In this document: piece by piece, positions 2,034 to 63,052 of the stretch
How positions within the stretch are numbered: the stretch's first letter is position 1
Layout of the letters: every line of letters starts with the position of its first letter
Source: Collinsella tanakaei YIT 12063
GTDB lineage: Bacteria > Actinomycetota > Coriobacteriia > Coriobacteriales > Coriobacteriaceae
Direction of reading: 5' to 3'
Length of the DNA: 64,000 nt
NCBI RefSeq assembly: GCF_000225705.1
Contig: NZ_JH126467.1
Location: 1 to 64,000 of the forward strand
Translations under genes and position numbers: made by a program
The notes under the pieces: generated by a model
What the model was told of the DNA's origin: nothing
The model's input: only the letters and a program-made list of their open reading frames with translations
The model's database searches: none

Positions 2034-2693
2034 TCAAACGAGCTTCCCGTCGCTCATGCTTAAGGCGCGGTCGCACATTGCCGCCATGGCCATATCGTGC
2101 GTTACCACCACGAGCGTCTTGTTCATGGTTCGCGCTGATGAGACAAGGGAGTTCATGACAATGCTCGCCATGCGCGCGTCCAATGATCCGGTCGGCTCGT
2201 CGGCAAGAATAAGTCCGCCTGGCTTAAGCATCGCGCGGCACATTGCAACTCGCTGCTTCTCGCCGCCTGATAGCTCGTTCACAACCGCATTCAGCTTGTC
2301 TTCAAGAGAGAACCTCCTCAGCATCTCTTCGATAGCCAGATTCTTCTCTTTCTTATCTAGCTTTGTGTGGTGCAGGGCGAGCATAAGGTTGTCTCGCACG
2401 GTTCTTGAATCGATAAGGGCGAATGATTGGAAGAGGTAGTTTATTTCGTAACGGCGCAAGAGCATTGCCTGATTGCTTTCGATTTTGGGGAGTGCCTTTC
2501 CGCATAGGTGGGCAGCGCCCGAGTCGTACGATTCGAGCAATCCCAAAATGTTCAGCAGCGTTGTCTTGCCGCATCCGGACGGGCCGGTGATGGCGACGGT
2601 CTCGCCCCTGTTGATAGAGAGTTTGAGATTAGAAAGAACGCGATGGTTTCCATAGGACTTCGATAAAGACTCGATTTTGATATACGGTCGCAT
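2034..2693 (-). CDS. ABC transporter ATP-binding protein (MacB/LolD-like, bacteriocin-associated type)
   Basis: 219 aa, a complete nucleotide-binding domain: Walker A GPSGCGKT (37-44), Q-loop in YLFQSFALID, signature LSGGEKQRV, Walker B LILADEPT and switch His in VVVTHDMAM. The arrangement (an ATPase just downstream of a large FtsX/DUF1430-like permease) is that of small systems linked to lactococcin-972-type bacteriocins or peptide resistance. The start at 2693 has AGGAG five nt upstream, and the gene begins 2 nt after the permease stop, so it is translationally coupled. Base composition is visibly more AT-rich than most of the window. Confidence 0.9.
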   Translation of the reverse strand: MRPYIKIESLSKSYGNHRVLSNLKLSINRGETVAITGPSGCGKTTLLNILGLLESYDSGAAHLCGKALPKIESNQAMLLRRYEINYLFQSFALIDSRTVRDNLMLALHHTKLDKKEKNLAIEEMLRRFSLEDKLNAVVNELSGGEKQRVAMCRAMLKPGGLILADEPTGSLDARMASIVMNSLVSSARTMNKTLVVVTHDMAMAAMCDRALSMSDGKLV

Positions 2694-2695
2694 CG

Positions 2696-3100
2696 CTACT
2701 CCTTAGAAATTGTTTCCAATACAACGGCCGTGGATCTTTTTCGCGACACGACTCCGATGGCGAAAAGAGAGATAAACAGCAGCGCAACGCCAACAAGCAC
2801 GCCAGCCCGGCTTCTGAGAACAATGCTTGTGCAGATGCCTATCAGTGCGGTAAGGGATACGAACAGAATTTCTCTTCGATACAGCCCCCATAGCCCGCAG
2901 CCTAGAATGTATTTGACGGAGATCTCTTTTGCGTTCACCCGGTTCGCGACATCGATGAGACACATCACCATAACAACAACGGCTGTCATTAAAACCATCA
3001 GAACAATTGAGAAGAGGGCGAATAGCTCTTCAAGGCTCTTTTGTATTCCGTCTATATAGTTGCCGACCGTAGCAAACCGAGCGTTCATCGAACCAAGCAA
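2696..3100 (-). pseudogene. C-terminal part of the split DUF1430-like permease
   Basis: This frame carries the last three membrane segments and the motif NAKEISVKYILGCGLWGLYR. That pattern (xKEIxVKxxLGxxxxxxYR) marks the C-terminal domain of bacteriocin-associated integral membrane (DUF1430-type) proteins. It is in the same frame as the N-terminal part but cut off by a TAA inside a 29-bp insertion. Any independent translation would need the TTG at 3100 or the ATG at 3088, with no good ribosome site. I therefore read it as the separated tail of one gene, inactive in this configuration. Removing 66 bp (see the repeats) rejoins it in frame. Confidence 0.7.
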
Positions 3101-3160
3101 GAATGTTGATAGTTATTCAAACCAGTTGCCGACCGTAGCAAACCGAGCGTTCATCGAACC
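3058..3160. repeat. Two identical 37-bp direct repeats around a 29-bp spacer
   Basis: The 37 bp at 3058-3094 (beginning AGTTGCCGACCGTAGC) recur exactly at 3124-3160. The 66-bp offset is a multiple of three, and the spacer (3095-3123) contributes an in-frame TAA on the minus strand. Both copies encode GSMNARFATVGN in the permease. Recombination or slippage between the copies would delete 66 bp and give one continuous frame. Confidence 0.95.
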
Positions 3161-20353: not shown

Positions 20354-20558
20354 GATGAGGTATTGAAATGGACCATTTTTAGTAGCTCAAATGGGTCTTT
20401 TTAATACATATGTTGGAATCGGTATTACTAAGTACCGTTTTTTTAGGAAAAAGCGGCACATGGTAATACCGATGTTGATATTGGTATTAGAACGAACCAC
20501 TTTAAGCGCTTCAATGTGGCACGCTCTAATAAATAGATATGAGGTATTAAAACGTGCC
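20354..20558. repeat. Degenerate cluster of GTAATACC/GGTATTAC hairpins
   Basis: Between the convergent uvrA and SDR genes. GTAATACC at 20463-20470, a 12-nt loop, then GGTATTA at 20483 repeat the core seen at 27376 and 62744. TGGCACG...TAATA pairs with TATTA...CGTGCCA at 20516-20558, and GGTATTAC at 20421 pairs with the GTAATACC at 20463 around an inner T/A-rich stem. Stems are less perfect than in the other clusters. No gene is supported here. Confidence 0.7.
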
Positions 20559-20582
20559 ATTTTCTTGTTTGGTAATGCTGGA

Positions 20583-27236: not shown

Positions 27237-27259
27237 TGCCCGTCGCTTTGTGCTCTTGG

Positions 27260-27481
27260 AAAACGGCCCGTTGTAATACATGAATCGAATTGGGCCGTTT
27301 TATGAGGGTAAAATGGTTCGCTGTAATACACATTTTAAGATTGGTATTAAAAAGAACCAGAAATCTGAGAAAAAGTGGTCCCCCGTAATACCAATTCCAA
27401 AATCGGTATTACGGGGGACCATATGAAACGGTTCAAAATGGTCAAAAGTAATACGCGAGTTCCGGGTATTACTTTTGACCG
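27260..27481. repeat. Cluster of four hairpin repeat units, core GTAATACC-N12-GGTATTAC
   Basis: Lies between the convergent FemAB and ATP-grasp genes. Units: AAAACGGCCC / GGGCCGTTTT (27260-27301); TGGTTC / GAACCA around GTAATACA-N12-GGTATTAA (27314-27359); a perfect 17-bp stem TGGTCCCCCGTAATACC with its complement around a 12-nt loop (27376-27421); and a 15-bp stem GGTCAAAAGTAATAC with its complement around 11 nt (27440-27480), followed by a T6. The last may double as a terminator. No gene is supported. Confidence 0.9.
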
Positions 27482-27549
27482 TTTTTTGCGTCAGTGTCGG
27501 CGGCGCGCATCATCGCTGCAAGGCGCGCCGCCGCAGCCGCCGAGCGACG

Positions 27550-28785
27550 CTAGAACGAGGTCTCGGTGGGCTCGGGGTAGTAGCGTGCGAACTTGCGGTA
27601 CTGGTTGTTCTCCGTCAACTCCACGTCCACCATGCGGCGCAGCGAGCGGTCCGCGGCGTAGCGCTGCGGGTCAAACACGCGGTTCTGGCTCATCAGGCGG
27701 TCGACGCGCGCCAGCAGTTCCGGGTCGCGCACGTAGCGGCGCAACAGGCGGGTGGGCACCAGCGAGTAGAGGATCTCGTTGGTGATGCGCACCGGCCCGA
27801 CGTCTCGTCCGCAAACCAGGTCCTCAACGCAAAACGCCATGGGGTTTGCCCCCGCCGCGCAGTTGTAGAACGAGTTGCGGCCAATGCGCGGGTTTACTTC
27901 CAAGAACAAGCGGCGGCCCGTGGCGGGGTCGCGCTTGATATCGAAGTTGGCAAAACCGCGGTAGCCAATGCTGGTGAGCATGTGGGCGCACTTGTCCCAT
28001 ACGTCGTCCATGGGCTGGGTGATCATGGCCACGGGGTTGCCCAGCATAGAGGGCGCGTGGTCTTCCAGCAACACCTGAGCGCCGCCAAACATGGTGGTCT
28101 TGCCATGGCTATCTATGTAGAGGGTGACGCTGTCCATATAGGTGTCGTCGCCGCCGATAAGCTCCTGCACCAAAAAGTTGCCGGCGAACCCGGCGTCGCG
28201 CAGCTTGGCCCATAGCTCGTCCAGCTGCTCCTGGCGCTCGATAAAGTAGACCTTCTTAAAGCCCATGTTGATAAAGCTGGCGTATTCGGGCGAGTACGCG
28301 GGCTTGGCAACCAGGGGAAAAGCGATTTTGCTGGGGGCGATCGGCTCGTTTCCAGCCAAGCGCACCAGTTCGGTTGCGGGCGTGTCCAGGCCGTGCGCGC
28401 GGCATAGCTCGTTAAAGCGGTTCTTGTTCGAGACCTGTGCGATCACCTCGGCGGACGGGGTGGGCGAGACTATGCCCTCGATCTGCGCCTTGGCGGCGTT
28501 AACGGCGGGGATGCACGGCTCGGAGTTGGTGATCAGCACCACGGTCTTATCGCGGTTGCGCACCGCGATGCGGCGCACGTGATCGCAGATCTCCTCCGGT
28601 TCGGTGGTGGTGCAGCGAACGTGTTCAAAAATGCGCGAATGCTTGATGATGCCTATGGGCTCCTGAATCAGCGAGATCGCCTTGCAGCCGTATGCCTCGT
28701 GGAACTCGCGTCCAATAGCGTAGGCGCCAATGTCGCCTCCCAAGATGACTGGTAGGATAGATGCATCATGCGAGATGCGGACCAT
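27550..28785 (-). CDS. ATP-grasp ligase similar to D-aspartate ligase (peptidoglycan cross-bridge)
   Basis: 411 aa from the ATG at 28785 (MVRISHDASILPVILGGDIG), with AAAGGGGA seven nt upstream. The order ILPVILGGDIGAYAIGREF, FPLVAKPAYSPEYA, VQELIGGDDTYMDS, GNPVAMITQ, GYRGFANFDIKRD and LFLEVNPRIGRNSF follows that of the enterococcal D-aspartate ligase (Aslfm), which couples D-Asp to the Lys side chain of peptidoglycan precursors. ATP-grasp Mg-binding residues fall in NFDIK and EVNPRIGR. The amino acid used here may differ. The gene faces FemAB across a hairpin-repeat cluster and is divergent from uvrC. Confidence 0.8.
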   Translation of the reverse strand: MVRISHDASILPVILGGDIGAYAIGREFHEAYGCKAISLIQEPIGIIKHSRIFEHVRCTTTEPEEICDHVRRIAVRNRDKTVVLITNSEPCIPAVNAAKAQIEGIVSPTPSAEVIAQVSNKNRFNELCRAHGLDTPATELVRLAGNEPIAPSKIAFPLVAKPAYSPEYASFINMGFKKVYFIERQEQLDELWAKLRDAGFAGNFLVQELIGGDDTYMDSVTLYIDSHGKTTMFGGAQVLLEDHAPSMLGNPVAMITQPMDDVWDKCAHMLTSIGYRGFANFDIKRDPATGRRLFLEVNPRIGRNSFYNCAAGANPMAFCVEDLVCGRDVGPVRITNEILYSLVPTRLLRRYVRDPELLARVDRLMSQNRVFDPQRYAADRSLRRMVDVELTENNQYRKFARYYPEPTETSF

Positions 28786-28948
28786 ATTCGTCCCCTTTGC
28801 ATCGAGATGTTTCACGGGCAAGGTCGCGCGGCCCTTCGGCGCGCGGTCGCTAAGGGGACATGATACCGCATGGCCGTGCCCTTGCTTTCACGGCGGTGCG
28901 CACGGTGCGTTTTTGGACGAGGAATCTACAGCGTTTGGGAGGAGCTGC

Positions 28949-62692: not shown

Positions 62693-62851
62693 TGGTTCCA
62701 ATCGATACATGTATTAGATTGGACCATATTGAACCTCTTCATATGGTCCGCTGTAATACCACTGTTGAAATCGGTATTACAGCGGACCAGAAAAATCAGA
62801 AAAAGTGGTTATCTATAATACCGATCTCATTTTACGTATTACCAGGAACCA
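62693..62851. repeat. Cluster of hairpin repeat units, core GTAATACC-N12-GGTATTAC
   Basis: Unit TGGTTCCAAT / ATTGGACCA (62693-62726, one bulge); a perfect 17-bp stem TGGTCCGCTGTAATACC with its complement around a 12-nt loop (62744-62789); and TGGTT...ATAATACC-N12-CGTATTAC...GAACCA (62806-62851). The spacer between the last two (CCAGAAAAATCAGAAAAAG) nearly repeats the one at 27357-27375. Same family as at 27260-27481. Confidence 0.88.
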
Positions 62852-63052
62852 CTTTGGATCCAAATAGTGGCTCAAAGTAATACATGTATCGGATCATGCC
62901 GCTTCGCAGTGGCCCTCCCGCTCGGCTCGCCATCCCGGCGGACAACTCCAACGCTGGTACCAGAGGGGGGGAGGGCGTCTTTACAGCACGGGGATAGCGG
63001 GGAGCGGCAAGTTCAGGGCAGGTCAACGTCCCACCAACTGCCCGCGTACATA

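Follow-up and report, generated by a model that had tools for sequence, protein, structure and literature searches.

PATEs are palindrome-ended MITEs derived from IS200/IS605, with hairpins at their ends and no target duplication, and a role with gyrase has been proposed for the BIME-2 elements of E. coli. REPs, in turn, are short palindromes found in inverse orientation and in clusters between genes, mostly in convergent or same-direction gaps, and some REP families are limited to one species (PMC3733652, PMC3116915). Their definition includes a GTAG or CGTC tetranucleotide next to one of the stem ends (PMC3733652). Where stems are perfect, maintained or repaired, template switching has been described as a source (PMC8794818).

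The 64-kb window analysed here, i.e. the whole stretch of DNA from Collinsella tanakaei YIT 12063, contains hairpins with covarying stems that a preliminary description had likened to REP/BIME elements. In form the likeness holds, as these are short alternating palindromes that occur in clusters between genes, downstream of them, and are dispersed over the genome.

Architecture of the hairpin arrays

A loose half-site pattern, applied to the window and to the surroundings of matches elsewhere in the genome, showed that the reported hairpins are contained in a larger element of around 174–208 bp, which is roughly palindromic overall. Its building block is a 17-bp half-site, YGG-N7-TAATACM, whose orientation alternates along the chain. 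The gap within the central hairpins is 12 bases (25 such hairpins), neighbouring hairpins are separated by 16 or 17 bases, and the outer hairpins have a gap of either 0 (TAATACATGTATTA) or 9. Along an array the gaps follow the order 0/9, 16–17, 12, 16, 12 with a period of 62 bp, and the chain holds up to four hairpins. This fixed plan is common to 13 of the 14 clusters found in the genome, and a rarer variant combining a 9-gap with a 17-gap is common to three clusters (20359, 27264 and L031), which suggests the copying of whole elements.

Within the stem, the loop-proximal motif is conserved and the middle is variable, and the columns flanking the arms read AAA[AG]/[CT]TTT. Allowing up to two mismatches, the arm pattern has 15 matches in the 64-kb window versus 0.7 expected, a number reached by 0/100 shuffles, and the region 27256–27489 folds as a single strand far better than its shuffles (z = −11.5 as DNA and −10.2 as RNA). 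The unit initially described, TGGTC-N4-GTAATACC followed by a loop and the exact complement, is present in the CCCC and CGCT hairpins of Arrays 2 and 3 (Table 1), and the AAAA copy is also there, albeit with a differing outermost base. Adjoining Array 2 is a 423-aa ORF (27550–28821, −) for which Pfam gave no match at E 0.001, although its sequence looks ATP-grasp-like.

Table 1. Arrays in the window and their component hairpins
Feature	Position	Arm starts	Remarks	Strand or gene context
Array 1	20359–20559			convergent: uvrA (+) versus short-chain dehydrogenase gene (−)
Array 1, lone half-site	20359–20375			−
Array 1, 12-gap hairpin	20392–20437		middle unmatched	
Array 1, 12-gap hairpin	20454–20499		middle unmatched	
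Array 1, 9-gap hairpin	20517–20559			
Array 2	27264–27481		four hairpins	convergent: FemAB-like gene (+) versus gene on − strand
Array 2, 0-gap hairpin	27264–27297		degenerate	
Array 2, 12-gap hairpin	27314–27359			
Array 2, 12-gap hairpin	27376–27421	27376/27405	perfect 17-bp arms, CCCC	
Array 2, 9-gap hairpin	27439–27481	27439/27465	AAAA; outermost base differs	
Array 3	62693–62901			adjoins tRNA genes, not convergent
Array 3, 0-gap hairpin	62693–62726		at one end	
Array 3, 12-gap hairpin	62744–62789	62744/62773	perfect 17-bp arms, CGCT	
Array 3, 12-gap hairpin	62806–62851		middle unmatched	
Array 3, 0-gap hairpin	62868–62901		at the other end	

Genomic distribution and gene context

Searched with a covariance model built on the 62-bp unit, the 2.49-Mb genome yielded at least 14 clusters, three of them inside the window, and thus the further copies on which the preliminary description had depended do exist. 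The 14th cluster (C6:66669, L057) is rich in GC and has CGATAC in place of TAATAC in either arm; it is possibly an old copy adapting to the GC-rich genome. At L057 4669–4730 the CGATAC arms are fully complementary, and a second, degenerate hairpin lies within about 60 bp to the right.

Outside its own genome the same model, applied to one genome per species with a stricter filter by which weak matches can be lost, had zero matches both in 42 congener genomes and in an order-wide sample of 246 other genomes that includes congeners. Among 84,980 species genomes, the exact two-arm pattern gave only two isolated matches (Rothia and Uabimicrobium), neither within an array, and in viral contigs it gave one match, present in two contigs and without an array. 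Comparison with phage and plasmid records by blastn returned chance matches only. Of the Rfam families, tRNAs alone were recognised in the window, and whatever matched at the array scored far below the gathering thresholds; a search of the literature on repeats in Collinsella and Coriobacteria found nothing relevant. Among the genomes searched, the array family is private to one species.

All arrays are intergenic and mostly situated on the downstream side of genes. Based on gene directions from a simple codon-usage gene caller, seven of the 14 clusters are convergent, five lie between genes of the same direction, none is divergent and two are not classifiable; within the window, the two convergent clusters that had been reported correspond to Arrays 1 and 2. 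Convergent placement accounts for 7/12 classifiable arrays versus 31/156 background gaps. Across three species, divergent placement was seen for 1/37 classifiable arrays versus 39/156 background gaps (p 0.0013).

This convergent bias, together with the A-run/stem/T-run layout and terminator-like matches within W27, L031, L032, L033, L034 and L039, would be in line with intrinsic terminators that act in both directions, or with RNA hairpins at 3' ends that are kept for transcript pairing. A GC-rich stem with a T-run at gene ends is seen in some arrays and missing in others. However, 7 of 13 arrays have no internal terminator-like match, and Array 1 is flanked on either side by terminator-like hairpins lying outside it. 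Moreover, many hairpins are unmatched, and terminators do not need the invariant TAATAC. A terminator function is an improbable explanation of the family, even if some copies may also act in this way. A G-U bias, as a sign of RNA, was uninformative (28 versus 17, with arbitrary orientation).

Arm matching and half-site conservation

Hairpin partners agree in their middle bases far more often than expected, with 168 matches versus 103.7 by partner shuffle, a value reached by 0/5000 shuffles. On average, 4.31 of the 7 middle positions match between hairpin partners, compared with 2.66 for arms on either side of the 16-gap and 2.64 for arms of different elements. An alternative pairing across the 16-gap was consequently rejected, as arm matching there is only at background level.

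The matching is all-or-none, i.e. bimodal. Middle positions 4–10 match 7/7 in 11/39 hairpins, versus 1.2 expected with independent columns, and at least 6/7 in 14/39, whereas 15/39 hairpins have three matches or fewer, near background, and 13/39 have two or fewer, versus 3.0 expected. The earlier statement that the middles are always matched is accordingly true of the best copies only; covariation as such is well above chance, but the middles do not match in hairpins such as those at 20392–20499.

Conservation of the half-site follows a different pattern. Pairwise identity is 92 % at the TGG/TAATAC positions versus 37–39 % in the middle, 47 % in the loop and 45 % in the flank. Deviations from TGG/TAATAC, of 18 positions, amount to 0.71 in matched and 0.80 in unmatched hairpins; since these bases are equally kept where the arms do not match, half-site conservation is independent of pairing. 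That pairing is what is kept, as first proposed, is hence only half of the account: paired middles are seen in about a third of the hairpins, whereas almost all hairpins retain the half-site ends.

The middle words form a restricted vocabulary (46 versus 65 expected). G is nearly absent at half-site positions 4, 5, 6 and 8 (half-site strand, all clusters), bases are strongly linked within positions 4–5 and within 8–10, and the triplets CAC, TCC, TTC, TCA, TAA and CCC are found at positions 4–6. Identical middles are shared between clusters in 9 cases versus 3.3 expected (p about 0.02); an exchange of middles between clusters was considered and set aside, the signal being weak and stemming at least partly from the restricted vocabulary.

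Half-site ends that are near-invariant irrespective of pairing, a rigid 12/16/62-bp spacing, the exclusion of certain bases, as in degenerate binding sites, and the convergent bias could all be expected of arrays that bind a nucleoid or topology protein, in the way proposed for BIME-2 and gyrase, and that form cruciforms where genes converge. On the other hand, the spacing may reflect common descent only and differs in congeners (65 and 52), and binding alone does not predict the excess of arm matching. We regard this explanation as unlikely.

Mobilisation, related families and known repeat systems

The preliminary description had also proposed mobilisation by a RAYT-like transposase, which our data do not support. 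The genome encodes no Y1_Tnp protein (PF01797), although these occur in 36/41 other genus genomes in that search, and the GTAG/CGTC tag is absent from the foot of the hairpins. Seven Y1 loci in four congeners had zero arrays of this kind; other palindromes, e.g. TTTGGGGTCWGACCCCAAA, GGGGACGTGTT-type and GTAAAATAACCCCTGGGGTTATTTTAC, are found near most of them. Given the missing PF01797 protein and these seven loci, a RAYT origin was rejected as far as this genome is concerned. Had a RAYT spread true REP/REPIN elements and later disappeared from the genome, this would account for a form and placement resembling REP doublets (PMC3733652, PMC3116915), and Y1_Tnp proteins are common in the genus. 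Yet the half-site ends are undecayed, contrary to the expectation for orphan relics, and the missing tag and the array-free Y1 loci also count against such a loss, which we hold to be quite doubtful. In one congener (G038), three perfect palindromes TGTGNNRTTTGGGGTCWGACCCCAAAYNNCACA flank a Y1 transposase gene (L170, G038:C1:824500-830000, at ~2130–3115), with outer bases that vary among the copies and match within each; covarying stems are thus also present in a RAYT-type repeat.

The flanks of the arrays, whose ends are uncertain, had no consistent direct repeat such as the constant-length target-site duplication of MITEs with TIRs, and there was no empty site; movement is therefore deduced solely from the spread of one plan. 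Our tentatively preferred explanation is that of lineage-private, non-coding BIME-like arrays that have no RAYT link, with half-sites recognised by sequence and stems probably homogenised by template switching. The element, itself non-autonomous, would once have been spread by a putative mobiliser, in line with the three clusters that share the 9-gap plus 17-gap variant. Each half-site would still be constrained in sequence, most simply because it is read by a putative DNA-binding protein, which either the host or the former mobiliser would supply, a recognition to which the invariant half-site ends point. The matched stems would result mainly from template switches that take the replication machinery from one inverted arm to the other, and a single such event would restore a whole arm, rather than compensatory mutations doing so pair by pair. 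Template switching alone does not account for the matched tracts, which stop near TGG and include hairpins with a differing TGG (L031 4837 and L034 5013). The restricted middle vocabulary is another point against the preferred explanation, and the bimodal matching could alternatively come from a mix of pairing-functional and non-functional hairpins.

When k-mers were counted de novo in parts of two congener genomes, families of a similar kind came to light. G014 has 18 arrays of paired palindromes around CATTCATGAATG, 64–66 bp apart, with a conserved asymmetric spacer and an element orientation that is independent of gene direction, the latter again speaking against terminators. In G038, palindromes around AGAGTTAACTCT occur with an exact 52-bp spacing at 8 loci (6 pairs, one triple and one single). 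The sequence TCATTCATGAATGA occurs 24 times in G014 and CGAGAGTTAACTCTCG 8 times in G038, each with zero occurrences in the rest of the 43 genus genomes, and in both families the arms covary (220 versus 186 in G014 and 114 versus 88 in G038; 0/5000 shuffles each). No family of this kind was seen in a de novo search of G002 and G015, covering 200 kb of each, and about 200 kb each of G016 and G040 contained GGGGAC-type repeats only.

Further palindromes were seen in the same two congeners. Those of the GGGGACGTACCT type in G014 (L102 15876–15941 and 16121–16188; L105 1226–1323) have a loop-proximal stem that varies and stays complementary. G038 has many ACCTCAATTTAGGGACWGTCCCTAAATTGAGGT palindromes (L089–L094, e.g. 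L090 17123–17177; L174 3161), one of which adjoins an IS200-type Y1 gene, and which constitute a second repeat family of that genome.

Like the arrays described here, the G014 and G038 families combine a conserved centre with covarying, varied arms and fixed spacing, and are intergenic and species-private; they differ in their unrelated cores (CATTCATGAATG and AGAGTTAACTCT), in having 1–3 hairpins per locus and in a spacing of 65 and 52. The likeness in plan of the three families, which may be one of form only, suggests that among species of one genus a similar plan is kept despite whole-sequence turnover. A further-reaching and rather unlikely scenario is that a number of species in the genus have their own private 'dialects' of one general system, in which recognised half-sites are arranged as spaced palindromes around a fast-changing, word-like middle with arms that are occasionally made identical, and which would be read by a dedicated, co-evolving non-RAYT protein.

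Stems that covary usually count as proof that pairing is under selection. In this family arms match all-or-none, with no coupling to half-site conservation, and the arrays therefore offer a natural test of template switching versus selection. They are also REP-like in a genome that lacks a RAYT, and one may ask what mobilises or reads them.

As in PATEs, there are hairpins at the ends and no target duplication, whereas the genome has no Y1 transposase and hairpins follow one another symmetrically over the full length of the element. With REP, BIME and REPIN elements the arrays share short palindromic stems in inverse orientation, dispersed intergenic copies in clusters, the scarcity of divergent gaps and a family restricted to a single species. 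Unlike these, they have neither the GTAG/CGTC tag nor a RAYT in the genome, their 14 clusters are a low number for REPs, and as many as four hairpins are strung together at a rigid 62-bp period, with a varying middle inside the stem and a conserved loop-proximal motif.
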